Shown here: piece by piece, positions 5,293-31,070 of the stretch
Numbering within the stretch: the stretch's first letter is position 1
Layout of the letters: each line of letters starts with the position of its first letter
From: Planctomycetota bacterium
Lineage (GTDB): Bacteria > Planctomycetota > B15-G4 > JADJEK01
Assembly (NCBI GenBank): GCA_016213895.1
Contig: JACQZJ010000026.1
Coordinates: 1 to 34,233 of the forward strand
Direction of reading: 5' to 3'
DNA length: 34,233 nt
Notes under the pieces: generated by a model
The model's input: only the letters and a program-made list of their open reading frames with translations
Told to the model about the DNA's origin: nothing
Databases searched by the model: none
Position numbers and translations under genes: made by a program

Positions 5293-7434
5293 ATGGCCAC
5301 GCGTTTCCTGCTCGTTCTGCTCCTTCTGTCCGGCTGCAGCCCGCTCGCTCCGCAGGCCGCCTTGGCAAGAAGGGGCGCGGCGGAGGAAGAGCGGGCGCGG
5401 CTCGAGGCGCGGTCGCAGGCGGTCACGATCCACCGCGACGAGTACGGCGTGCCGCACGTGTACGCCGACACGGACGCGAACGCGGTCTTCGGCTACGTGT
5501 ACGCGCGCGCCGAGGACGAGTTCGAGCGCATGGAGCAGAGCCTGCTCGGCCTCCTCGGCCGCTCGGCCGAAGTCACCGGCGAGGCCGGGGTTGCGAGCGA
5601 CCGGGTGGTTCTCGCCCTCGAGATCCCGCGGCGCGCGCGGGAGACGTACGCGGCGCTCCCCCCGGACGTGCGCGCTCTCTGCGACGCGGGCGCGGACGCC
5701 TTGAACTTCTACCTGCTGAAGCACCCCGAGACGAAGCGCCTGCTCCTCGACCGCTTCGAGCCCTGGTACTTCATCGCGGACAACTACTCGTTCAACGTGG
5801 CCATGCTGGTCATGCCCGAGGGGCAGCGGCTCCTCGGGCGCGGGCAGGAAGGCCAGGAGAGCGAGAAGCGCGCCCCGCCCGCGGACGAGCGCGCTCAGGA
5901 CGGCTCCAACATGTGGGCGATCGGCCCGCAGAAGAGCGCCAGCGGCAAGGCCATGCTCTTCATCAACCCGCACATCCCGCTGCACGAGCTGTACGAGGGG
6001 CATCTGCACAGCGACGCCGGGTGGGACTTCGCGGGCGGCAACGCCTACGGCGGCGGGCTCTTCCCGATCATCGGCCACAACGAGCACCTGGGCTGGAGCT
6101 TCACGGTCAACTACGTGGACATCCTCGACGTGTACGCCGAGACCTTCGACCACCCGGATGACCCGGACTCCTACCGCTACGGAGACGGCTGGCGAAAGGC
6201 GACGGTCTGGAAGGAGACCGTGAAGGTAAAGACCGAGGGCGGCTTCGAGGAACGCGCGCTCACCCTGAAGAAGACGCACCACGGCCCCATCCTGGGTGAG
6301 AAGGACGGCCGCCAGCTCGCCGTGCGCATCGCCCGGATGGAGGAGAACAACATGCTGCGCCAGCTCTACGCCATGAGCAGGGCGCGGAACGTGGAGGAGT
6401 TCAAGCAGGCCGCCTCCCTGCTGGGCATCGTCTTCCACAACCTGATGTGCGCGGACAGCGCCGGGAACATCTACTACGTCTACAACGCCGCGATCCCCCG
6501 GCGCGACCCGTCCTTCGCGTGGGGCGAGGTCCTGGACGGCTCCGACTCGGCGACCGAATGGCAGGGCTATCACTCCCTCGACGAGCTGCCGCAGGTGCAA
6601 AACCCCGAGTGCGGCTGGATGCAGAACTGCAACTCGTCGCCCTTCGTCACCGCGGCCGACACGAACCCGCGGCGCGAAGACTTCCCCTCCTACATGGCCA
6701 CGGACCCGAGCGATCCGCGCGTGGCCATGTCGCGGAGCATCCTCTCCGGCAAGGAGACCTTTACGTTCGAGGAATGGGCCAGGGCCGCCTTCGACACGCA
6801 CGTGCACGAGGCGGACCACTGGGTCGAGCGGATCGTCCTGGCCTGCGAGAAGAGCGACGGGCGGCTCGCCGAGGCAACGGCGCTGCTCGCCGAGTGGGAT
6901 CGCTCCATCTCCCTGGATTCCACGGCCGCGACGCTCTTCCTGCTCTGGTTCGAGAGCCTGGCTGCGCAGCTTCTTGCCGGCGAGCCGGCGGACGAGAAGA
7001 TCCGCGAGGGACTCGAAGCCGTGCTCGCGCTGCTGGAGGGGCGCTTCGGCGCCTGGCGCGTGCCCTGGGGCGACATCAACCGCCACCAGCGCCGCGACCT
7101 GCGCTCAGGCGAGGCCTTCAGCGACGAGCGCGCGAGCTGGCCGTGCCTCGGCGGCCACGGCGTGGCCGGCGTCTGCTTCTGCTTCCTGGCGAAGACTCCC
7201 GAGGGGTGCAAGCGGCGCTACGGCTTCCACGGCCACTCGTTCGTGAGCGTGGTGGAGTTCGGCGACACGGTGCGCGCCCTGTCCATCGTGCCCTTCGGCG
7301 TGAGCCGCGACCCGGCCTCGCCGCACTACGCCGACCAGGCGCCGCTCTACGCGCGCGGCGAGTTCAAGCCGGCCTGGTTCGAGCTGGAGGAGATCCAGGC
7401 CCACCTCGAACGCTCGTACCACCCGGGGGAGTAG
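5293..7434 (+). CDS. Penicillin acylase family (Ntn-hydrolase) lipoprotein
   Basis: The 713-residue protein has a signal peptide with lipobox LSGC (about residue 14), so it should be anchored in the envelope. The mature N-terminal part starts with [37 protein letters not shown], the canonical alpha-chain start of penicillin acylases. A linker then leads to [10 protein letters not shown], where the serine (about residue 206) would be the N-terminal nucleophile exposed by autoproteolysis. [17 protein letters not shown] follows, with beta-chain motifs such as HHGPIL. The family hydrolyses amide bonds, including beta-lactam side chains, acyl-homoserine lactones and acylated peptides; the substrate is unknown. 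All key motifs are intact. The ATG has GGAGA nearby. It is convergent with the broken isocitrate dehydrogenase gene, seven bases away. Confidence 0.9.
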
Positions 7435-19814: not shown

Positions 19815-22800
19815 TTGAAACGCAAGAAGACGCCGCGAAGCCGAAAGCCGGGGAGCGGCGCGGCGCAGGCCGACTCCGAGTACCGCGCGCTGGTGCTGGC
19901 CGCCCGGGACGCCGGCGGTTTCCGGCTGCTGCTCGCGGTACATGACGATCCTGCCGTGCGCCGCGACGTCGCGGCCCGTCTCGAGACCGACCTTCGCGCG
20001 CGGTCCATCGATCTGGTCCAGGTCGATCTGGCCGAGTCGCCGGAGGAAGGAACGCTGCTCGAGACCGTCCACTCGCGGGTCGAGGCCGCTTCGCGATCGG
20101 ACGCCCGGCTGGTGGTCTCCGTCGTCGGCCTGGACTCGCGCCTGGACTTCTCCCCTGGGGCGCCTGTCGGCGTGCGGTTCCTCGAGGACGCGAACCTGCA
20201 CCGCGACGCGTTCCCGAAGGCCTGTCCATTTCCGTTGATCTTCTGGCTCACGCCTCTCGCGGCCACGGCCCTCGCACGTTCCGCGCCGGACCTGTCGCAC
20301 TGGCGCTCCGCGACCTTCGACTTCTGCGGCCCGTTGCGCGTCGATCCCTCCGACTTCGCTTCGACCTCGGCCCTGGAAAAGCACGAGCACGTCGCGGCCC
20401 TGGTCGAGCGGCTGCAGCGTCTGGAGTCGGTGCCGGGAGCGGACTCGCCGGCGCAGCTCAGGGCCAAGGCGGACCTTCTCGTCCGGTTGGGCATCGCCCA
20501 GCTCGCGACCGGCGCGATCCGCAAAGCGGTCGACATCCTGACCCGGGCGCTGGAGATCGCTCGCCAGATCGGAGATCCACGCATCGAGGGCCGGGTGCTC
20601 GGCAACCTGGGAATGGCCCGCCTCCAGGCCGGGGACGTGCGCGACGGCATCCAGCTTCATGAAGAGCAGCTCGAGATCGCCAGAAGGGTCGGCGACCGCG
20701 AGAGCGAGAACATGGCCCTGCTCCATCTCGGCGTGGGTCATAGCAAGCTGGACGACAGGGCCACTGCGATCAGGCTCTGGACCGAGTGCGCGGACAGGGC
20801 CCGCGAGAGCCGCAACTGGCCGATGGAGAGGAAGGCCGCCGGCAACCTGGTCATCGGACACCTCAAGCAGGACGACCATGCCGCGGCCCTCCGGCTTGCG
20901 GAACGGGAGCTGCAGTGCGCGAGCGAGTTTGGTGATCGGGCAGGAGTCGCAGAGTTCGAGAGCCTCTTGTCCCAGGCGCAACTGCTCGCGGGCGATCTCG
21001 TCCAGGCCGTGGAGCACGGCGAGCGCTCCCTCGAGATGGCGCGCGAGCTGGGAGACCGCCTCCTGGAGGCGCAGGCGAGCTGGAATCTCGGCCTGGCCTA
21101 CCAGCACGCTGGCGAGCTGCCGAAGGCCCTGGAGCTGATGCGGGTCAGGCTCGAGTACGCTCGCGAGATCCAGCTCCCGGATCTGGAGAAGACATCCGCC
21201 CAGGTGGCGGCGCTGGAGGAACGAGTAGTGGGAAAGGAACCGAAGACACAGGGCACGACGAAGCAGACGGTCGAGGCGTGGAAGGAACCGCTCGAGCCGT
21301 TGCGGCGGCGGCTGCACGAAGGCAAGAACGTGGTTCTGCCGCTGGTCGGGTCGGGGATCTCGCAGGGCCTGCCGAGCTGGCGCGCGGTGGTGCGGGAGCT
21401 TCTGGATCGGGTCAAGCCGGTCGCCGCGCGTGACGAGATCGTCCAGCTACACGGGAAGCCGGAGGAGGATCGCGCCGACCTGCTGGGCCTCGCCTCGGAG
21501 ATCGAGATCGAGCTGGGGAAGGAGGCCGTTCGGGACGTCCTGAAGCGGACCTTCGAGAGGCCGGCGGCGCCGGCTCCTTCCGTCTACGAGCTGATCGCCG
21601 CCTTGCCGGTCGATCACTTCGCCACCACCAACTGGGATCCGTGGCTCAGTAGCGCCGTGCGCAGGAAGCACCTCGGCGAGACCGTCCAGGTGTTCACGCC
21701 GATGGACCCGGAGGGGTTTGAGAACGTCCTGGCCGACGCCGCGGCCACGGTCTGGATGCTCCACGGCGACGCGGCGCGGCCGGCGTCGTGCGTGCTGACG
21801 CGGGGGGCCTATGACTCGTTGATCCTGAACAACCGTACCTGGCGGACCGGCGTCACGACTCTGCTCCACCATCGGACGTGGCTGTTCCTGGGCTACTCGC
21901 TCACCGATCCCGACGTCGAGTTCCTGCTGAAGCTCTGGAAGCAGGTCTACCCCGAGAGTGGCACGAAGCACCTGTTGTTGACAGCGGAACCGTCGCCGCG
22001 CCGCGCGCGGGCGCTGCGCGCGCTTGGCGTGGACGTGGTCGAGTACTCGTCCGACCACGGCCACGCGGAGCTGTCGCGGATCCTCCGCTTCCTGGCCACG
22101 CCGCCGGTGAGCCCGCCCGTTGCCGGAACCACGAAGACCAAGAAGGGTGCTGCCTCCACCGCGCCGCCGGACGCCTGGTGGAAGCACGTCGAGTTCGAGT
22201 GCTCCGGCGTGCTCCTCTCCGGTCTGCTGGGAGACAAGCCGGCGCCGCCGCTGAAGCTCGAGGACGTCTACGTCCCCCTGCTGGCGCCGAGGACGGACTT
22301 GGAGCCCCGGGTCGAGGCCAAGACCGAGCGCGACGACGACACGCTGAAGACGCTGGTCAAGGCGCTCCAGGAAGACGCGGCGAAGGTAGCCGACAAGGTG
22401 CTCACCGCGGCGCTGCGCGGCGCCGGCGTTGGCAAGGACGACGCCTCCGCGAAGGCGACCGTCGAGGACACCCGGCGCCGGCTCCTGGAGATTCCCAAGA
22501 ACCGGCTCGACGGGGAGGCGGTGCGCCGCGTGCTTGCCACGCTTGAGCTGGACGCCGTCCTGCGCCGGCACAAGCGCCTTCTCGTGGAAGGAGACCCCGG
22601 CTCCGGCAAGACGACGACGCTGAAGCACGTGGCGATGGCGCTGGTCAAGGCCCACCGCGGTGAGGGCGACGCGGCGCGCTGCATGGGCTTCGCGGCCGGC
22701 GCCGTCCCCGTGTTCGTTCCCCTTCGCGACTTCTGGACGCACTTGCGCTCGGCCAAGAGCCACGACCCGGATTGCGCCGCACGGCTGCTCGAGTACCTCG

Positions 22801-25010
22801 AGAAGCAGCTCGACGCTCACGGCGGAAGCGCGTGGCTCGCCGCGGCGCTCGAGGAAGGCCGCGCCGTGCTTCTCCTCGACGGGCTGGACGAGGTCCTGGA
22901 CCCGGCGCTCCGCACCCGGGCGGCCGCGATCATCCGCGAGTTCCTGCAGGAACACGAGCGCTGCCCGTTCGTGGTCTCGAGTCGGCCGTCGGGCCTGCAG
23001 GAAGGCAACCGCCATGCCTTCCAGTCGGTCGGGCTGGTCCACGCCCAGGTGCAGGACCTCGACGAGGAGCGGGTCGCGCGCTTCGTCCGCGCGTGGTATC
23101 GCGCGCTGATCGCCAATCCCGACAAGGCCGAGGCCGAGACGCAGGACCTGCTGCACCGCATCGCCGGCAAAGCGGCGCGGACCATCCGCGATTTCACGCG
23201 GAAGCCGATCCTGCTCACGGCGTTGGCCGTGGTCCACCAGACGACGGCGCGCCTCCCCGAGAGGAAGGCCGACCTGTACGAGCACTGCGTGCGGGCCCTG
23301 ACCTACCTGTGGGACGACGTCAAGTTCCGCGACATGGCGGACCGGCAGGACGTGTTCACCGCCGACGACAAGCTGAAGTTGCTGCAGCGCATCGCGGCAT
23401 ACATGTTCCGGAACGACTCCCAGACCATCGAGCGCGAAGCAGTCATCCGGCTCGTCTGCGGCCTGCCAGGCGGGAAGGGCCTCGACCACCTGCGGGAGGC
23501 CCTGGAGGAAGCGGGGGCGGATGACGCGGCGCGGTCGCGGTTGGAAGGTGCCCTGGGCCGAGCCCTCGAGCTTCCCGAGGTTCGGAACGTCGCCGAGCTG
23601 CGCGCGCTGGTGGAGCGGGCGCGCGACTTGCCGAACGAGGTGAACCGCGCCGACCTCCAGCACTACCTCGACCTCTCGGCGGGCATCCCCGGAGGGAGGG
23701 ATCTCGGGGAAATGCAGATCCAGACGGCGCTCGCTGCCCTGGCGGAGCGCAGCGGCGTGCTGATCCCCGAGGGATTCGAGGGCTACCGCTTCCGCCACTT
23801 CAGCTTCCAGGAGTTCCTGATGGCGCGCTGGCTGGGGCGCGAAGCCAAGCAGAAGATCATCGCGCTGGCGCCGCGCATTCCGGACTGGCCGGACGTCGCC
23901 CAGCTCGCGGTCGGCTACAGGGCGATCGGCTCGCCGCAGGACGCGACCATGATGGCGCGGGACCTGCTGGCGGACGGGCTTGCGGCCGCGGCGGAGCAGC
24001 CCCAGCGTAAGCACAAGGTGCTCGAGGTGACGGCGCGGACGATCCTGGACCTGATCGAGTACCAGGCGCCGGATCTTGCGCTCGTGTGGAAGAAGGAGAA
24101 GGACGCCTTTCTCGGCGTGCTGAACGACCGGGAGCAGAAGGCCGACTTCGCCTGCAGGCTGGCGGTGGGGGAGATGCTGGGGAAGCTCGGGGATCCGCGG
24201 CTGGCGGACGAAGAACGCTGGGTAGAGGTGCCGGCCGGGCCGTTCCGGATGGGCTCGGATGAAGGCGCTCCGGACGAGAAGCCGGTGCGCCGAGTGCACG
24301 TGTCGGCCTTCCGCATCCAGCGCTGGCCGGTGACGATCGGAGAGTACGGCACGTTCGTGTTGGACGGTGGCTACGGCGAGTGGAAGCTCTGGGACGCCGA
24401 GGGTTGGGAGTGGAGATCGAAGAAGTCGGAGGAGACGCCAGGCCGGTGGGAGAGGCAGCTCCAGAAGCCATCGAACCACCCGGTCACCGGCATGTCCTGG
24501 TGGGCGGCGCAGGCCTTCTGCCGCTGGCTGTCGCGGCGGACGCGGAACCTGCCGGAGGGATTCGAGATCCGGCTGCCCACGGAGGCGGAGTGGGAGAAGG
24601 CGGCGCGGGGCGGGCTCGAGCTGGCGAACGGTCGCGAGAACCCCGCGCCCGATCGCGAGTACCCGTGGGACGGGGAGCTCGACGAAAGCAAGGTCAATGG
24701 GTGGAAACTGGGTCACCGCGGGACGACTCCGGTCGGCATCTTCCCTGCCGGCCACGGCCCGTACGGGACCTGGGACCAGAGCGGCAACGTGTGGGAGTGG
24801 TGCGGCGACTGGTACGGCCCGTACCGCAAGGACGACCTGAAGGACCCCACTGGACCTGAGAAGGGGGAATACCGGGCCGCGCGTGGCGGCTCGTTCGCAT
24901 TCATCCGGCGCAGCCTGCGCGTGTCGTTCCGCCTCGGCTGGTGGCAGCCGGAACTCCGCGGCGACGTCCTCGGTTTCCGCTGCGTCGCCGCCCCTGTCCG
25001 GGGACCTTGA
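19815..25010 (+). CDS. SIR2-NACHT conflict NTPase with TPRs and DGR-diversified FGE/CLec-like C-terminus
   Basis: This 1731-residue protein has, in order, an alpha/beta N-terminal domain of the kind found before TPRs (about 20-190; FRLLLAVHDDPAVRRDVAARL ... [26 protein letters not shown]), kinesin-light-chain-like TPRs (about 220-465), SIR2 (about 500-780) and NACHT (about 905-1250). An FGE-sulfatase/C-type-lectin-like domain follows (about 1467-1728). SIR2 has VGSGIS, TTNWD with N606 and LHGD with H650, so NAD cleavage is likely. NACHT has GDPGSGKTT (K932) and LLLDGLDEV (D1022). The last 40 residues coincide with VR1. In this class, ligand sensing at the C-terminus is thought to trigger NTP-dependent oligomerisation and effector toxicity. 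The start is TTG with weak AGGGG upstream; a different nearby start is possible. Confidence 0.92.
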   Translation: MKRKKTPRSRKPGSGAAQADSEYRALVLAARDAGGFRLLLAVHDDPAVRRDVAARLETDLRARSIDLVQVDLAESPEEGTLLETVHSRVEAASRSDARLVVSVVGLDSRLDFSPGAPVGVRFLEDANLHRDAFPKACPFPLIFWLTPLAATALARSAPDLSHWRSATFDFCGPLRVDPSDFASTSALEKHEHVAALVERLQRLESVPGADSPAQLRAKADLLVRLGIAQLATGAIRKAVDILTRALEIARQIGDPRIEGRVLGNLGMARLQAGDVRDGIQLHEEQLEIARRVGDRESENMALLHLGVGHSKLDDRATAIRLWTECADRARESRNWPMERKAAGNLVIGHLKQDDHAAALRLAERELQCASEFGDRAGVAEFESLLSQAQLLAGDLVQAVEHGERSLEMARELGDRLLEAQASWNLGLAYQHAGELPKALELMRVRLEYAREIQLPDLEKTSAQVAALEERVVGKEPKTQGTTKQTVEAWKEPLEPLRRRLHEGKNVVLPLVGSGISQGLPSWRAVVRELLDRVKPVAARDEIVQLHGKPEEDRADLLGLASEIEIELGKEAVRDVLKRTFERPAAPAPSVYELIAALPVDHFATTNWDPWLSSAVRRKHLGETVQVFTPMDPEGFENVLADAAATVWMLHGDAARPASCVLTRGAYDSLILNNRTWRTGVTTLLHHRTWLFLGYSLTDPDVEFLLKLWKQVYPESGTKHLLLTAEPSPRRARALRALGVDVVEYSSDHGHAELSRILRFLATPPVSPPVAGTTKTKKGAASTAPPDAWWKHVEFECSGVLLSGLLGDKPAPPLKLEDVYVPLLAPRTDLEPRVEAKTERDDDTLKTLVKALQEDAAKVADKVLTAALRGAGVGKDDASAKATVEDTRRRLLEIPKNRLDGEAVRRVLATLELDAVLRRHKRLLVEGDPGSGKTTTLKHVAMALVKAHRGEGDAARCMGFAAGAVPVFVPLRDFWTHLRSAKSHDPDCAARLLEYLEKQLDAHGGSAWLAAALEEGRAVLLLDGLDEVLDPALRTRAAAIIREFLQEHERCPFVVSSRPSGLQEGNRHAFQSVGLVHAQVQDLDEERVARFVRAWYRALIANPDKAEAETQDLLHRIAGKAARTIRDFTRKPILLTALAVVHQTTARLPERKADLYEHCVRALTYLWDDVKFRDMADRQDVFTADDKLKLLQRIAAYMFRNDSQTIEREAVIRLVCGLPGGKGLDHLREALEEAGADDAARSRLEGALGRALELPEVRNVAELRALVERARDLPNEVNRADLQHYLDLSAGIPGGRDLGEMQIQTALAALAERSGVLIPEGFEGYRFRHFSFQEFLMARWLGREAKQKIIALAPRIPDWPDVAQLAVGYRAIGSPQDATMMARDLLADGLAAAAEQPQRKHKVLEVTARTILDLIEYQAPDLALVWKKEKDAFLGVLNDREQKADFACRLAVGEMLGKLGDPRLADEERWVEVPAGPFRMGSDEGAPDEKPVRRVHVSAFRIQRWPVTIGEYGTFVLDGGYGEWKLWDAEGWEWRSKKSEETPGRWERQLQKPSNHPVTGMSWWAAQAFCRWLSRRTRNLPEGFEIRLPTEAEWEKAARGGLELANGRENPAPDREYPWDGELDESKVNGWKLGHRGTTPVGIFPAGHGPYGTWDQSGNVWEWCGDWYGPYRKDDLKDPTGPEKGEYRAARGGSFAFIRRSLRVSFRLGWWQPELRGDVLGFRCVAAPVRGP
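24876..24995 (+). repeat. DGR variable repeat VR1
   Basis: A 120-nt segment aligns without gaps to the template repeat at 26142-26261. The 5' 21 bases and 3' 27 bases are identical. In the 72-nt core, 18 of 21 template adenines are replaced (for example AAC to TTC, CTC, GGC, GTC, CGC; TAC to TTC), against 7 of 51 other bases. This adenine bias is the signature of mutagenic retrohoming. It encodes residues about 1688-1727 of the SIR2-NACHT protein, in the frame RGGSF...LGFRCVAAP. Confidence 0.93.
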
Positions 25011-25037
25011 CGCTCGTCCTTGAGCCTTGATCTTCTT

Positions 25038-25060
25038 GGCCCCGAGCGAAGCGAGGGGCC
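25038..25060 (+). repeat. Hairpin 3' of VR1 (candidate DGR target mark)
   Basis: GGCCCC and GGGGCC form a 6-bp stem enclosing tandem G-A mismatches and the core GCGAAGC, a sequence known for unusually stable DNA mini-hairpins. It lies 43 bases after VR1 and recurs after VR2, not after TR. In the Bordetella phage DGR a hairpin downstream of VR stimulates homing, so an equivalent role is a reasonable inference. Similar GAGCGAAGCGA hairpins are also common gene-end elements in GC-rich genomes. Confidence 0.5.
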
Positions 25061-25070
25061 GCCGCGGAAG

Positions 25071-25120
25071 TCGTTTCCGCACCTTCCCGCGTGCTTCCGC
25101 GAATTTCCGCGGGTTTCCGC
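25071..25120 (+). repeat. Five 10-bp phased repeats, consensus nnnTTTCCGC
   Basis: Five consecutive 10-mers in exact register end in TTTCCGC or a close variant (tcgTTTCCGC, accTTCCCGC, gtgCTTCCGC, gaaTTTCCGC, gggTTTCCGC). They follow the VR1 hairpin and lie 50 bases before the HTH gene start. The 10-bp period equals about one helical turn, so all copies face the same side of the DNA. A matching array follows VR2. Confidence 0.7.
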
Positions 25121-25146
25121 GACGCGCGCGGACCGCTTCTCCGCTT

Positions 25147-25169: not shown

Positions 25170-25781
25170 ATGGACCTGACCCCCAAGGAAGCGGCGCGCT
25201 ATCTCGGCAAGTCCGAGCGGATGGTCCGCTACCTCCTCAAGTCTGGGAAACTGCCCGGCCGCAAGCAGGACGACAAGTGGCGGATCCCCAAGGACGCCCT
25301 CGAGCCGCTGCTCTCCGACCAGCAGCGCGCCGAGCGCCGCGAACGCGTCGCTGACCTCCGGGAGCGCCTCGACCAGTCGCTCGGCGAGCTGCAGCCGGCC
25401 GCGAAGGACGAGAGCGGGCGCAGCTTCTACTCGGTGCGCGACGTCCGCCTCTTCGGCGCCCTCATCCAGGTTCTCGCCGAGGTGGAGCAGCTCGAGGCGC
25501 CCGCCCTGGCCCGCGTCGCCGACTCGCTTCGCGCCTGCCTCCGGCACCTCGCCGACGGCATCCACCAGTTCGAGATACCCGTGAAGCTCGACCGGCTCAC
25601 GCGCGCGCGCACGGACCTGTGCACCGCGCTGGCCGATCTGCTGGTGCACGCGACGTCCAGCGAGTCGTCGGCGGTCGTTCCCCTCGCCGACCGCATCGAG
25701 GGCGAGATGCTGCGCTCGCTGAACGGCCTGCTGCGGCGCGTCGAGCGCCGCCGTCGCAGGCCCGCGGGAGGCGCCGCGTGA
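25170..25781 (+). CDS. MerR/excisionase-like helix-turn-helix protein of the DGR cassette
   Basis: Residues 1-50 (MDLTPKEAARYLGKSERMVRYLLKSGKLPGRKQDDKWRIPKDALEPLL) form an HTH_17-type winged helix as in excisionases and MerR-like regulators. A charged helix follows (about 52-72), then an all-helical C-terminal region (about 90-195; SFYSVRDVRLFGALIQVLAEVEQLEAPALARVADSLRACLRHLADGIHQFEIP) with no motif I recognise, and a basic end. The 203-residue gene overlaps the Avd gene by four bases (GTGA) and is preceded by a perfect dyad and by the phased repeats that end the VR1 region. It may regulate the cassette or bind the target-site repeats; both are inferences from position. Confidence 0.78.
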   Translation: MDLTPKEAARYLGKSERMVRYLLKSGKLPGRKQDDKWRIPKDALEPLLSDQQRAERRERVADLRERLDQSLGELQPAAKDESGRSFYSVRDVRLFGALIQVLAEVEQLEAPALARVADSLRACLRHLADGIHQFEIPVKLDRLTRARTDLCTALADLLVHATSSESSAVVPLADRIEGEMLRSLNGLLRRVERRRRRPAGGAA

Positions 25782-26116
25782 GCGACCTGCAGGCGCCCCT
25801 CTTCGTCCGCTCCTACGACGTGGCGCGGGAGATCCTGGAGCGGACCGCGCACTTCCCGCGGCAGCAGCGCTTCGTGCTGGCGAGACGTGCCGAGGAGGCG
25901 GCCCTCGACCTCGTGGAGAACGTGGCGCTGGCGCTGCAGTCGAAGGCGGGCCGGATCGACCGCGTCGTCGCCGCCGACCTGGCGCTGACCCGGCTGCGGC
26001 TCGCCTGGCGGCTCGCGCGCGATCGCCGCCACGTGAACGAGCGGGGCTTCCAGCACGTCGCCCTCCAGCTTGGCGAGATCGGCCGGATGCTGGGGGGCTG
26101 GCAGCGGAAGCTTTGA
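25778..26116 (+). CDS. avd: Avd-like four-helix-bundle DGR accessory protein
   Basis: The 112-residue protein starts at a GTG overlapping the HTH stop. It has four amphipathic helices: SYDVAREILERTAHFPRQQRFVLARRAEEAALDLVENVALAL, then RIDRVVAADLALTRLRLAWRLARDRR, then FQHVALQLGEIGRMLGGWQRKL. This is the layout of Avd and of the related four-helix S23-type family: an aromatic-containing first helix, a FP-x-x-QR/F-x-LA turn, and a basic third helix. Avd forms a pentamer that binds the reverse transcriptase and the template RNA and is needed for mutagenic retrohoming. Its place, directly before the TR and RT, fits the standard avd-TR-RT order. The symbol is by analogy. Confidence 0.82.
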   Translation: MSDLQAPLFVRSYDVAREILERTAHFPRQQRFVLARRAEEAALDLVENVALALQSKAGRIDRVVAADLALTRLRLAWRLARDRRHVNERGFQHVALQLGEIGRMLGGWQRKL

Positions 26117-26141: not shown

Positions 26142-26261
26142 GCCGCGCGTGGCGGCTCGTTCCACAACGACCGCAACAGGCTGCGCGTGTCGTACCGCAA
26201 CGACTGGAGGCAACCGGCGAACCGCAACGACAACCTCGGTTTCCGCTGCGTCGCCGCCCCT
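26142..26261 (+). repeat. DGR template repeat (TR)
   Basis: This 120-nt non-coding repeat matches VR1 and VR2 end to end. Read in the VR frame it would encode RGGSFHNDRNRLRVSYRNDW and on to NLGFRCVAAP. It holds 21 adenines, all in the central 72 nt; the 21-nt 5' and 27-nt 3' flanks contain none on this strand. Adenines sit mostly in AAC, GAC, AGG, TAC and CAA codons, where replacement by any base never gives a stop. The 3' 27 nt are identical in TR and both VRs and would act as the homing anchor. Confidence 0.93.
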
Positions 26262-26362
26262 CCTCGAAGACCCAGCCCGTCCGGGATGCGGCGGTCCGTG
26301 GTGCACCGCCGCGCGCGACGGGCCGGGTCCAGGCCGCTCCGGGGCGAACTGATCGCCCGCCC

Positions 26363-26414
26363 GGCCCGTCCGTTCTGGTAGGGCAAACGCCCGAACGTCC
26401 GGACGGGCCCTTTT
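26363..26414 (+). terminator. Long hairpin with T-run between TR and RT
   Basis: GGCCCGTCCG pairs with CGGACGGGCC, with an internal GGGC-AAAC-GCCC hairpin and extra TTC/GAA pairing, followed by CTTTT. It looks like a rho-independent terminator 22 bases before the RT start. It could limit RT expression relative to the template RNA, or be the folded spacer used to prime cDNA. Confidence 0.6.
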
Positions 26415-26436: not shown

Positions 26437-27438
26437 ATGCGCACGTGCCGGAACCTCTTCGAGAGGGTCATCGCCACGGACAACCTGTTCGCTGCCTGGA
26501 GCGACGCGCGGCGCGGCAAGCGGCGGCGGCCGGACGTGGCGCGGTTCGAGCTGGACGCGGAGTCGCGCCTCCTCGATCTGCGGCGGCTGCTCTTGTCGGG
26601 AGAGTGGCGGCCGGGGCGGTACCGCACCCACGTCCTGCGCGAGCCGAAGAAGCGCCTCATCGCCGCGGCGCCGTTCGCGGACCGCGTGGTCCACCATGCC
26701 ATCCACCGGGTGATCGAGCCGCCGCTCACGCGCCGCTTCCTTCCTGGGACCTTCGCCTGCCGGCCGGGGTTCGGGACCCATCGCGGCGTGCTGGCGTTCC
26801 GCGGTGGGCTGCTGCGCCACCGGTTCGTCGCCCGGCTCGACATCCGCCGCTACTTCCTGGAGGTCGACCACAGAGTCCTGCTCGCAGTGCTGGGTCGAAC
26901 GATCCGGGATCGACGAATGATGGAGCTGCTCGCCCGGATCCTTTCGAGCGGCGCGGCGCTCTACTCCGATCCGCGGGTGCTGGACGCCCTCGGCGTCGGC
27001 GCGGTCTACCGCCCGTCGCCGGCGAAGGGGCTGCCCATCGGCAACCTCACGAGCCAGCTCTTCGCCAACCTCTACCTGGACGGGCTGGACCACTTCGTGA
27101 AGCGCGAGCGGAAGGTCGCGGGGTACTGCCGCTACATGGACGACGTGGTCCTGTTCGGCGACAGGAAAGGGGAGCTGCGGGACCACCTGGACGCGTGCGT
27201 CGACTGGCTCACGCGCGAGCGGCGGCTGGAAGCGCACCGGCTCGTGGTGACGCGGACGGAGGGGGAGCACCGGTTCCTGGGGCACGTGGTCTCGCGCGCC
27301 GGGATCCGCCCGCGGGCGCGGACGGTCAAGCGTCTGGTGCGGCGGGCAAGGGAGAAGGGTCGACTCGCCGGCAGCGAGCGGCGGCGGGACGAGTGGGAGC
27401 GGGAGCTGGTCGCGAACGTCCGGGCCGTGTCCCTCTGA
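26437..27438 (+). CDS. DGR reverse transcriptase
   Basis: The 333-residue enzyme has the reverse transcriptase blocks in order: LREPKKRLIAAAPFADRVVHHAI (about 67-90), PGTFACRPGFGTHRGV (about 104-120), ARLDIRRYFLEVDH (motif A, about 132-145), and GLPIGNLTSQLFANLYLDGLDHF (about 195-217), which carries the [L/I]GxxxSQ form typical of DGR enzymes. The catalytic YMDD lies in GYCRYMDDVVLFG, and HRFLGHVVSRAG follows. It lacks maturase, endonuclease or RNase H domains. It copies TR RNA with adenine-specific errors for transfer into VR1 and VR2. GAGGAA precedes the ATG. The stop lies two bases before the phased repeats of the VR2 side. Confidence 0.94.
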   Translation: MRTCRNLFERVIATDNLFAAWSDARRGKRRRPDVARFELDAESRLLDLRRLLLSGEWRPGRYRTHVLREPKKRLIAAAPFADRVVHHAIHRVIEPPLTRRFLPGTFACRPGFGTHRGVLAFRGGLLRHRFVARLDIRRYFLEVDHRVLLAVLGRTIRDRRMMELLARILSSGAALYSDPRVLDALGVGAVYRPSPAKGLPIGNLTSQLFANLYLDGLDHFVKRERKVAGYCRYMDDVVLFGDRKGELRDHLDACVDWLTRERRLEAHRLVVTRTEGEHRFLGHVVSRAGIRPRARTVKRLVRRAREKGRLAGSERRRDEWERELVANVRAVSL

Positions 27439-27440
27439 TC

Positions 27441-27480
27441 CGCGGAAAGGCGCGGAAATCCGCGGAAATGCACGGAAACG
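27441..27480 (-). repeat. Four 10-bp phased repeats 3' of VR2
   Basis: Four 10-mers in exact register on the plus strand (CGCGGAAAgg, CGCGGAAAtc, CGCGGAAAtg, CACGGAAAcg) are the reverse complement of the TTTCCGC array found after VR1. Seen from VR2 they follow the hairpin, in the same order and spacing as at VR1. Confidence 0.7.
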
Positions 27481-27491
27481 ATTTCCGCGGC

Positions 27492-27513
27492 GGCCCCTCG
27501 CTTCGCTCGGGGC
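27492..27513 (-). repeat. Hairpin 3' of VR2 (candidate DGR target mark)
   Basis: On the minus strand GCCCC and GGGGC form a 5-bp stem around the same GAGCGAAGCGA core as the VR1 hairpin, 53 bases beyond VR2. Sequence between VR2 and hairpin also matches the VR1 side in part (TTGAGCCTTG then TCTTCT), so the two 3' regions share ancestry beyond the coding sequence. Confidence 0.5.
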
Positions 27514-27551
27514 GAAGAGGACCGGAGAAGACCAAGGCTCAAAGGCAAACT

Positions 27552-30500
27552 TCAAGGCCCTGGGGGAGGGGCGGCGACGCAGCGGAAACCGAGGGTGGCG
27601 TGACGGTACGCCGGAGGGCATCGGTCGACGCTGTACGACACGCATAGGAGGCATTGGAAGTCGTCGAACGAGCCGCCACGAGCGGCCCGGAGTACCCCCT
27701 CCTTGGGTCCGGTGGGATGCTCGCGTTCGGTCTGACGGTAGGGTCCGTACCAGTTGCGGCACCACTCCCTGACGTTGCCGCTCTGATCCCACGTTCCGTA
27801 CGGCCCGTGGCCAGCCGGATGACAGCCGACGGGCTGCAAGTGCCTCGATTCGTAGGCTGCTGCGTTCCTTTCGTCCCACCCTCCCACCCACGGCCATTCG
27901 CGCCGCGGTTCGGGGTTCTTGCTGCCATCGGCCAGGTACTCCCCGCCGCGCGCGGCCTTCTCCCACTCGGCTTGGGTGGGCAAGCGGACGATCCAGCCGG
28001 TTCGGGGAAGCGGAACCATATCGGTGAACCAGCGACAGAAAGCCTCAGCCTCCCAGCAGGAAACTCCCACCACCGGATAGTTGCTCGTCCGGGCCAACTG
28101 CTTGCGCCAGCTTCTGGGTGTCGTGACTGCGTTCTCTTCACGCCACGACCAGCCTTCTGCACTCCACAGCGTATGCTTGTCGTAGCCCCCATCCTCGACG
28201 AAGCGCCGGAACTCGGCAATGGTCACAGCCCAGCGCTGGATCGCGAACTCAGAGACCGTGACCAATACCATGGGCCGCTCGGAGCCGGACCAGAAGGGGC
28301 CCTCCGGGACTACGATCCAGCGCTTGTCATCCTCGAGCCGCGGGTCTCGTGTTCTGCCGAGACCCTCGGCCACCTGGATGCGAACGTTCAGAGGTGCTCT
28401 TTGCTTGGGATCCTTGAGCACTGCGAGCACGAAGCCCAGAGCCTCGCGGAGTGGCGAGAGCGTCTTTTCAGGCAGTTGAAACGCCTCCAGGTCCTTCAAG
28501 CACACGGCTGCTGCTGCCACGCGTGGCGCCCACTCTGTCGGGGGCGCCTTCTGGCCGACCAACTTGCGGAGGAACTCCTCGATCCGCTCCTCCGCAGATT
28601 GTTGGGCCAACACGCCGGCCGTCAGCGCCGTGACCTCGGCCCACGCCGGGTCCTCCAGGTGGCGGATCAGCTCGACCGCTGGGTCAGTGCCGTTGGCGAT
28701 CTGCTTCGCGATCAGGTACTCCTGAAAGGTGCGGTGGGGGAAGTGGACCTTGGGGCCGTCCAAGTGGATCAGGCCGACGTTGACCTCGAGGGCGTGCAAT
28801 AGCTCCCTGGCCTGGTCGCGGCAGAGGTCGTCATCGTTGCCATCCAGGCGCGTCGCGAGCAGGCGCTCGGCCTGGTCCCGGCCCAGCGCGTTCTTGCGTG
28901 CGCCGTCCCTGTCCCTGGCGTGGTGCATAGCGCGCGCCAGCGCCTGGAGGTGGCGGAGGATCGCCGGCGGCTTTCCCCACGGCCCGAGAGCCTCCCGCTG
29001 ACGCTCTACTAGGTACTCAACGCACTGGTCGTAGAGGATGGCCCGTTGCTCGGGCAGGCGCTTGCGCGCTCTGTAGACCAGCGCCAGCATGGTCAGGGTT
29101 TGGGGATTGGCGGCGAGGTTTCGCACTTCAGGCGAGCCCCGGACAGCGGCCTTCATCCCGGCCGCAACGCTCTCCGGGTCGCCTGCTGTCCGAGCCCAGC
29201 GGTTGAGGAACTCGTCCATCGCCTTGTCGTCAAGGGGCTGGATCTCCACCTCGTCGAAGCGAGAGAAGGCCTTGTCGCCGCCCCACGCCCGCGTGCGGCA
29301 GGCGACAACGAAGCGGTTCTTGTTGTCCTTCCATCCCGGGAAGGCGTCCGCGAAAGCCGAGATGGCGGCGGCAAGGCGCTTGCGGCTTCTTTCGCCTGCC
29401 ACCTCGTCAAGACCGTCGAGAAGGACCAGCAGGCCGCCGCAACAGAGCAGGCTCTCCATTCCCTCGCCGCTCAGCGCGATCCCGCTATCGGCGCGGATCT
29501 GAGCGGCAAGAGCATCGGGCCAGGCCGACACATCCGGGTCCCGCGCCACCTTGGTGGGCAACCGCTCGGCCAAGTGAGTGAGCCGGAAGAGGAGCGGCGG
29601 TGGCAGCGGCTCGAAGCCGAGGCGATCAGCAAGGCCGTGCTGGTCCGTGGTCGTCAGACCGCGCGCAAGGAGGAGGGCCACGTAGCGGAGGAGCGTGGTC
29701 TTGCCGGAGCCCGGCTCGCCGGTAATCGCGAGCAACTCGGATGTGGGCAGCACGTCCTTCAGGTCGAGGTCATCGCGTGCGGCGCCGGTCTCGGTGTCCC
29801 GATCCTCATGGCGCGTCCGGCGGCTGACGATGCGGAGCTTTACGTAGACGCGGTCCAGCTCGATGTTGTTCACGTCGCGAGTGCTGATCCCGGGCACGTC
29901 GACGTAGCGCAACCTCCGCACCAGCCATTCCAGGTACGGCCGCAGATCCAGCGTTGTGGCGGCAGTCAGTGGGGCACGCGCCAGGCCGGCGCCGATCGTG
30001 CGCAGGGGGACAGCCTCGGGAGGACTTCCTTGGTCGGCCTTGTCCAGGTTCTCGGTCGGCTCGGGCTTGAAGTCCCAGGTGCCGTCCTGGAGCTGCATCG
30101 CCCGGCGCGGCCAGAAGCGGATCTGCCCTGTTCCATCGGGGAGCAGCGCCAGCCGCCCGACCGCGTAGCCGTGGATGCGTTCTTTCTCGCCGTCGAAGGT
30201 CCTGAGGCCGGACAGCGATGCCGCCTGGTGGATTCTGCGCTCGACGCCGCCTCCCTTTCTCGTCGTCTCGCGCGCGTCCACGTGCAAATGCCCGCAGAGG
30301 TGCGCGACGATCCGGTCGTCCGCGAAGATCCCGGAGCGGTACCCAGCGAGCGCCCGCGACGACAGCCATGACGGCGGGTGGTGCGACACCAGGAGCACGC
30401 CGTGGTGGCGCCCTTCCCACTTGACCGCGTCGCCGCCGCAGGCCTGGTGGTACTGCTCTACCTCCAGTGCGAGCTTCCCCTGGTGGTTGCCGTCACCGAT

Positions 30501-31070
30501 CTGCAGGAACGCGCTGTTCAGCCCTGCGATGCCGAGGCGCAGCCGGCCGTCTTGGCTGGCGACGGTGGCGCTGAAGTCCTCGGGGAGCAGTCCGGGCTGG
30601 CGATCGGCGCCGACCCGGTCGCAGTCCTCCAGCCAACGCCGGTACGCCTGGAAGGCGTCGCTCACCATGGTGAACGCGTCGTTCCTCGCCAGGAAGTCGG
30701 CGCGCGCCTGGTCGTCGTCGAACTGCTTCAGATCGCGCAGCCGCGAGCGCACGTCCGACAGCGTTGGATCGGGCCGCACCAGGTCGTGGTTGCCGGGCAC
30801 AGAGTAGAGCGGCGCCCGGCCCGAGCCGACGCGCTCCAGCTCCGCGTAGAGATCGTCGAGCACTCCCTTGAGCCCCTCGAAGTCCGCGTCCGTCCCCCGG
30901 TGCGTCAGGTCGCCCGTGAACAGCACCACGTCCAGCGGCCCGCCCGCCAGCTTCAGCACTGCCTCCAGGTCCTCGAAGAACCGCTGCCGCACCCTGGGCC
31001 AGAGGTTCTTCGAATCCGGATGCCCCCAGTGCAGGTCGGTGAGATGCAGCCAGCGGATAGCCGACGACAT
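27552..31070 (-). CDS. Metallophosphoesterase-NACHT conflict NTPase with DGR-diversified FGE/CLec-like C-terminus
   Basis: The 1172-residue protein starts with a calcineurin-like phosphoesterase (about 1-310) bearing all metal ligands: D12 and H14 in TDLHWG, GDLTHRG (D54), GNHD (N94, H95), H230 in SHHPP and GHLH (H261, H263). NACHT (about 385-750) has GEPGSGKTT (K457) and LLDGLDEVAG (D552). A helical region and an FGE/C-type-lectin-like domain (about 915-1169) follow, ending in VR2. The phosphoesterase would be a nuclease or nucleotide hydrolase effector released on sensing, a different effector from the SIR2 protein but with the same sensor design. The genes converge on the cassette from both sides. 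GGAGGA precedes the ATG but is locked in an inverted repeat. Confidence 0.93.
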   Translation of the reverse strand: MSSAIRWLHLTDLHWGHPDSKNLWPRVRQRFFEDLEAVLKLAGGPLDVVLFTGDLTHRGTDADFEGLKGVLDDLYAELERVGSGRAPLYSVPGNHDLVRPDPTLSDVRSRLRDLKQFDDDQARADFLARNDAFTMVSDAFQAYRRWLEDCDRVGADRQPGLLPEDFSATVASQDGRLRLGIAGLNSAFLQIGDGNHQGKLALEVEQYHQACGGDAVKWEGRHHGVLLVSHHPPSWLSSRALAGYRSGIFADDRIVAHLCGHLHVDARETTRKGGGVERRIHQAASLSGLRTFDGEKERIHGYAVGRLALLPDGTGQIRFWPRRAMQLQDGTWDFKPEPTENLDKADQGSPPEAVPLRTIGAGLARAPLTAATTLDLRPYLEWLVRRLRYVDVPGISTRDVNNIELDRVYVKLRIVSRRTRHEDRDTETGAARDDLDLKDVLPTSELLAITGEPGSGKTTLLRYVALLLARGLTTTDQHGLADRLGFEPLPPPLLFRLTHLAERLPTKVARDPDVSAWPDALAAQIRADSGIALSGEGMESLLCCGGLLVLLDGLDEVAGERSRKRLAAAISAFADAFPGWKDNKNRFVVACRTRAWGGDKAFSRFDEVEIQPLDDKAMDEFLNRWARTAGDPESVAAGMKAAVRGSPEVRNLAANPQTLTMLALVYRARKRLPEQRAILYDQCVEYLVERQREALGPWGKPPAILRHLQALARAMHHARDRDGARKNALGRDQAERLLATRLDGNDDDLCRDQARELLHALEVNVGLIHLDGPKVHFPHRTFQEYLIAKQIANGTDPAVELIRHLEDPAWAEVTALTAGVLAQQSAEERIEEFLRKLVGQKAPPTEWAPRVAAAAVCLKDLEAFQLPEKTLSPLREALGFVLAVLKDPKQRAPLNVRIQVAEGLGRTRDPRLEDDKRWIVVPEGPFWSGSERPMVLVTVSEFAIQRWAVTIAEFRRFVEDGGYDKHTLWSAEGWSWREENAVTTPRSWRKQLARTSNYPVVGVSCWEAEAFCRWFTDMVPLPRTGWIVRLPTQAEWEKAARGGEYLADGSKNPEPRREWPWVGGWDERNAAAYESRHLQPVGCHPAGHGPYGTWDQSGNVREWCRNWYGPYRQTEREHPTGPKEGVLRAARGGSFDDFQCLLCVSYSVDRCPPAYRHATLGFRCVAAPPPGP
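27567..27686 (-). repeat. DGR variable repeat VR2
   Basis: This 120-nt segment aligns to TR without gaps. The 3' 27 nt are identical and the 5' 21 nt differ once. In the 72-nt core, 14 of 21 template adenines differ (AAC to TGC, GTC, TAC, CAC, ACC; GAC to GCC) but 13 of 51 other bases also differ, so VR2 is a less exact match to the present TR than VR1. It encodes residues about 1129-1168 of the metallophosphoesterase-NACHT protein and includes three cysteine codons absent from TR. Confidence 0.88.

Follow-up and report, generated by a model that had tools for sequence, protein, structure and literature searches.

The closest described counterpart of the sites analysed here is the recipient hairpin or cruciform of the diversity-generating retroelement (DGR) of Bordetella phage BPP-1. 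There, according to excerpts from PMC3240598, a GC hairpin with a G..A loop lies just 3' of VR, beyond the TR homology, and is absent at TR. The same excerpts state that only 24 bp are needed after VR, and describe neither a phased array nor a DNA-binding accessory protein. The BPP-1 DGR functions in E. coli with four core components (PMC12875486). Among DNA-binding proteins, BldC (PMC5859096) and RdfS (PMC11963761) oligomerise head-to-tail on DNA.

The locus described in this work lies in a window (the whole stretch of DNA analysed) of 34,233 nucleotides from a Planctomycetota bacterium. It is a DGR: a DGR-type reverse transcriptase (RT), TR/VR pairs, Avd and a hairpin 3' of VR are all present, the gene order being target 1, HTH gene, avd, TR, RT, and then target 2, which is inverted. 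The features are as follows.

24876..25006, + strand: VR1, at the 3' end of the TPR-SIR2-NACHT-FGE target gene (19815-25010); 77% identity to TR
25004..25037, + strand: spacer of CCTTGA-like 7-nt units, from VR1 to the hairpin (sequence)
25038..25060, + strand: VR1 hairpin, GGCCCC-GAGCGAAGCGA-GGGGCC, i.e. GGCCCC-GA-GC(GAA)GC-GA-GGGGCC, 23 nt (sequence, folding)
25064..25080, + strand: VR1 inverted half-site plus first unit, GCGGAAGTCGTTTCCGC, second hairpin (sequence, folding)
25074..25123, + strand: array 1, five 10-bp units, core TTTCCGC (sequence; unique in the genome)
25170..25781, + strand: HTH protein gene, HTH_17 winged helix (residues 3-45) and predicted C-terminal four-helix bundle (Pfam, AlphaFold2, Foldseek)
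25778..26116, + strand: Avd (bAvd Pfam 9.8e-17, yet under the NCBIfam cut-off; phrog_3206)
26142..26272, + strand: TR (sequence comparison with the VRs)
26437..27438, + strand: DGR reverse transcriptase, YMDD intact in the sequence (phrog_1423 1.6e-86; RT tree)
27439..27478, - strand: array 2, four 10-bp units, core TTTCCGC (sequence)
27472..27488, - strand: VR2 inverted half-site plus first unit, GCGGAAATCGTTTCCGT, second hairpin (sequence, folding)
27493..27513, - strand: VR2 hairpin, GCCCC-GAGCGAAGCGA-GGGGC, 21 nt (sequence)
27514..27551, - strand: spacer from VR2 to the hairpin (sequence)
27556..27686, - strand: VR2, at the 3' end of the metallophosphatase (phosphoesterase)-NACHT-FGE target gene (27552-31070); 76% identity to TR

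Mismatches to TR fall at TR adenines in 20 out of 30 cases for VR1 (10 at non-adenine positions) and in 16 out of 32 for VR2 (16 at non-adenine positions), an adenine bias weaker than in relatives. TR and the VRs differ at many non-adenine positions, an unusual feature when set against relatives, so that TR has probably drifted after the most recent homing event; these differences also hide the pair from our TR/VR detector, whose threshold is 70% of mismatches at adenines. No remote VRs of this DGR were found beyond VR1 and VR2. The gap between TR and RT features an inverted repeat around GTTCTGGTAG...CGAACGTCCGG, both in the window (~26360-26409) and in a related locus, L048 (~5905-5955); it is perhaps part of the DGR RNA. 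The targets, NACHT/SIR2/TPR and phosphoesterase-NACHT proteins, resemble anti-phage proteins, and the locus has in this respect a bearing on diversifiable bacterial immunity.

The original prediction held that each VR has on its 3' side a short spacer, a GC hairpin and 10-bp-spaced units carrying TTTCCGC, five after VR1 and four after VR2, and that TR lacks hairpin and array. Direct inspection of the sequence bears out this arrangement. The 10-mers of array 1 are, in order from 25074, TTTCCGCACC, TTCCCGCGTG, CTTCCGCGAA, TTTCCGCGGG and TTTCCGCGAC, and those of array 2, in order from 27478, TTTCCGTGCA, TTTCCGCGGA, TTTCCGCGCC and again TTTCCGCGGA; the VR1 and VR2 modules share 85% identity over 82 nt. 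The 10-bp register stood up to scrutiny, but the TTTCCGC core is exact in only 6 of the 9 units, namely 3 out of 5 in array 1, where the other two are one base off, and 3 out of 4 in array 2. Neither hairpin nor array is found 3' of TR in the window sequence, with the caveat of a lone TTTCCGC inside TR (26240), a matching coding word being present inside both VRs. An inverted half-site (GCGGAAG or GCGGAAA), overlooked in the original prediction, directly precedes the first unit of each array, so that a second hairpin folds at each of them. Only at VR1 is the GC hairpin the clearer fold, because in the minimum-energy DNA structure of the VR2 strand CTTCGC pairs with GCGAAG, in place of the drawn stem.

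A genome-wide search for the module, the check originally suggested, covered 5.5 Mb in 218 contigs and located the array only beside the two VRs. TTTCCGCN3TTTCCGC occurs only at the two arrays, and the looser TTCCGCN4TTCCGC has five matches, four in the arrays and one elsewhere (three for the reversed control); the hairpin core occurs three times, twice at the VRs and once within an apparent unrelated coding sequence. Dispersed 10-bp phased repeats occur in some environmental genomes, and the arrays might be taken for a generic repeat of this kind, without any tie to the DGR: this reading, very improbable in our judgement, is already contradicted in this genome by the absence of the array elsewhere in 5.5 Mb.

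Among 80 surveyed loci of RT relatives, in most of which TR/VR pairs were found, an HTH homologue is encoded in only two, L041 and L048, where repeated TGTCA/TGACA sites follow both VRs, 3' of the hairpin. A profile search for the HTH protein revealed further full-length homologues at L132, L133, L135, L136, L137 and L153-L156, for 11 loci beyond that of the window, in 8 genomes, the window's own included: L133 shares a genome with L041, and L135 with L136, while L132 is on contig C62 of the genome to which the window belongs. All loci in which an RT was found share the layout VR1-HTH-avd-TR-RT, with an inverted target 2 after it if the contig extends that far; L132 and L156 are cut off by contig ends, and the filter did not pick up VR2 in L153. 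The 10 placeable RTs from HTH+ loci form a single clade, with support 100/100, in a tree of 79 DGR RTs. Searching phages, plasmids and viral contigs for HTH homologues produced no match.

Some of these loci have peculiar arrangements. The second HTH homologue of the window's genome (L132, 336-7513, G000:C62) lies between two FGE genes, both followed by TGCCGG-rich arrays; no TR or RT was seen before the contig end. L136 (11300-11931) has a third VR with a truncated HTH gene copy behind it, an arrangement that a joint duplication of VR, flank and the start of the HTH gene would produce. L157 (7282-7845) contains an intact HTH homologue with TGTCA-like sites just upstream of its start, and no RT or FGE gene was found there in 15 kb.

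A multi-copy motif is located 3' of the VRs in 11 of the 12 HTH+ loci, window included, and varies by system, being TTTCCGC, TGTCA, TGCCGS or TGRCCG; L136 has no class motif. A de novo 6-mer test of the VR 3' regions, based on dinucleotide shuffles, detected an over-represented word in 9 out of 12 systems at p=0.005, which is the floor of the test; L155 follows with p=0.015, and the signal is weak in L135 (p=0.045) and in L153, where it is not significant. Single regions reach p<=0.007 in 12 of 25 HTH+ flanks versus 8 of 86 HTH-minus ones (Mann-Whitney p=1.7e-5), and several of the latter 8 are due to a TR situated immediately downstream. In most systems, the word selected at one VR is found again at the other, the two sides not being independent for R1/R2 of the window, R1/R2 of L137 and parts of others, which are homologous copies. 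This recurrence holds also where the flanks show no homology (L041) or are homologous over the first 49 nt only (L132); flank homology is short in L132, L133 and L154. The words are 10- to 95-fold denser in VR 3' regions than in the rest of each locus. With motif words picked after inspecting the sequences, 113 sites are counted after VRs versus 3 after TRs, and same-strand spacings peak at 10.25-10.5 bp; phasing at 10.5 bp has p=0.0008 when exact words are used, with one region per system and the window excluded.

The HTH protein scores above the TIGR01764 cut-off, and HTH_17 is found in all 13 homologues scanned. AlphaFold2 confidently predicts a winged HTH and, after it, a four-helix bundle at the C-terminus, with a pLDDT of 85 over the entire protein and of 93 for the bundle by itself. 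Foldseek matches the winged HTH to BldC (TMt 0.80, 1.2 A), Xis and RdfS; a search of solved structures by sequence returned only a weak Xis match. The best Foldseek matches of the bundle are 2gsc and 2rld, both 23S-rRNA-IVP proteins, with bAvd lower in the list and E values of at least 0.04, and no sequence signal between this domain and Avd was detected by hhalign or Pfam; the likeness to Avd is accordingly a suggestion. By these models, the protein would join a BldC/Xis-type winged HTH to a four-helix bundle resembling Avd.

The residue following the conserved Arg17 varies along with the motif class, as assigned from the words picked by inspection: it is Gln with TGTCA (L041, L048, L133), Thr with TGCCGS/TTGCCG in three cases out of four (L132, L137, L154, the exception being L136), Ala with TGRCCG (L135, L153, L155, L156) and Met with TTTCCGC (window). 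Phylogeny renders these classes partly dependent; in a partial Mantel test, motif-profile similarity correlates with recognition-helix identity when C-terminal identity is controlled for (r=0.46, p=0.001). Motifs differ between the two systems of the window's genome, TTTCCGC in one and TGCCGG in the other. Co-occurrence, helix-motif co-variation and the predicted BldC/Xis-type winged HTH all support the early suggestion that the adjacent HTH protein is the array binder, and from them we infer binding.

The main rival reading would make the array nothing else than the operator of the HTH-avd-TR-RT operon, with the HTH protein repressing or activating its own promoter and the VR2 copy surviving passively from a duplication of the VR. 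Array 1 is situated as an operator would be, directly upstream of the HTH gene in the interval from VR1 to its start codon, but array 2 is placed between convergent gene ends, far from any visible promoter. R1 and R2 are homologous in the window, in line with a duplication; against this, the motif recurs at both VR flanks in most systems, including the non-alignable L041 and the short-homology L132, L133 and L154. HTH_17 proteins are often regulators, the sites of L048 extend to the start codon and those of L157 lie upstream of a homologue without a DGR; a passive copy, however, is not expected to track the recognition helix. We regard an operator role as rather unlikely to be the sole function of the arrays, while autoregulation in addition to another function is likely.

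Hairpins are widespread at the VRs of other DGRs. In the 80 RT relatives, strong GC hairpins (score of at least 14) follow 42% of VRs, the share being 14% for TRs and 1% for shuffled flanks, and GNA-type loops are the commonest form of DGR VR hairpin. In VR 3' flanks such as those of L045, L064 and L092, many of the hairpins are followed by AAATTTTTT-like runs resembling terminators. The spacer between VR and hairpin, corresponding to the first ~50 nt after VRs (L041-L120), displays in many phyla a 7-8-nt periodicity of CYTTKAC / CTGATCA-like units: 3-mer identity reaches z=17 at distance 7 and z=22 at distance 8, and periodicity has p<=0.01 in 27 out of 65 loci after VRs versus none out of 65 after TRs. 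The window's own spacer is not significant alone. This periodicity is possibly a general, undescribed DGR recipient element.

Folding of the inverted pairs in the arrays, together with the T-runs following many hairpins in other DGRs, would suit a DNA-structure or RNA element needing no dedicated protein, such as an extended cruciform, a replication-fork obstacle or a transcription terminator. Helically phased direct repeats, motifs specific to each system and their co-variation with the protein helix are not expected of such an element, which we consider distinctly unlikely; a terminator reading of the window module was rejected, as no T-run is present 3' of the hairpin.

We think it reasonably probable, instead, that array and hairpin are the recipient-site mark of a DGR lineage equipped with a dedicated DNA-binding accessory protein. 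The BldC/Xis-type winged helix of the HTH protein would bind the phased units downstream of each VR, with a protomer on every turn; the protomers would probably lie head to tail along one DNA face and polymerise on the array. The resulting nucleoprotein patch, beside the hairpin, may mark or prepare the VR, by bending it or by holding hairpin or duplex open; alternatively, it may dock the Avd/RT/cDNA complex via the Avd-like bundle. In either case, cDNA would go to the VRs and not to TR, and array 1, just upstream of the HTH gene, would probably autoregulate this gene too. Since the BPP-1 DGR works with its four core components, the HTH accessory would be the addition of one lineage, not a general DGR requirement.

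More tentatively, and with rather less than even chances, these systems may form a target-addressing DGR subclass, in which the HTH-Avd-like fusion becomes part of the Avd/RT complex and brings cDNA to those genes that have a cognate phased array. If this is true, each DGR of a genome (TTTCCGC and TGCCGG here) would have a recipient address of its own, and hypermutation would be redirected by transferring an array. How cDNA reaches VR rather than TR is only partly understood, and a dedicated DNA-binding subunit would offer a concrete answer for one DGR lineage; readable, system-specific sites would provide a handle on how this lineage is regulated and, possibly, an address that could be programmed for targeted diversification.

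In comparison with known systems, the hairpin 3' of VR, rightly recognized at the outset as a DGR recipient element known from BPP-1 (PMC3240598, in excerpt), is not new here; its distance from VR is about 40-50 nt in the window, versus the 4-34 bp reported in the same excerpts. Neither a phased array nor a cognate DNA-binding accessory for DGRs is described in the open-access literature searched, and within that scope the phased arrays with their cognate HTH protein are new. BldC of Streptomyces (PMC5859096), RdfS (PMC11963761), lambda Xis and Pukovnik Xis have a winged HTH of the same HTH_17/excisionase kind, and this group forms head-to-tail oligomers about one DNA turn apart, on direct repeats in the case of BldC; they act in transcription or tyrosine-recombinase excision, whereas the winged HTH of the window carries a predicted helical bundle and is retroelement-encoded. 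The predicted fold of the C-terminal domain resembles the four-helix bundles of Avd/bAvd and 23S-rRNA-IVP proteins (4dwl, 8ub7, 2gsc), and an ordinary Avd is also encoded in the window; this C-terminal domain differs in showing no detected sequence similarity to them and in being fused to a DNA-binding domain. Finally, the targets recall the DGR-diversified putative antigen sensors of multicellular bacteria (PMC10907252), conflict-system targets with variable CLec-type domains. In one ternary-system locus of that study an HTH-domain gene replaces VMAP, and was read as an alternate effector; the HTH gene of the window, in contrast, lies inside the DGR gene cluster and is accompanied by cognate arrays.
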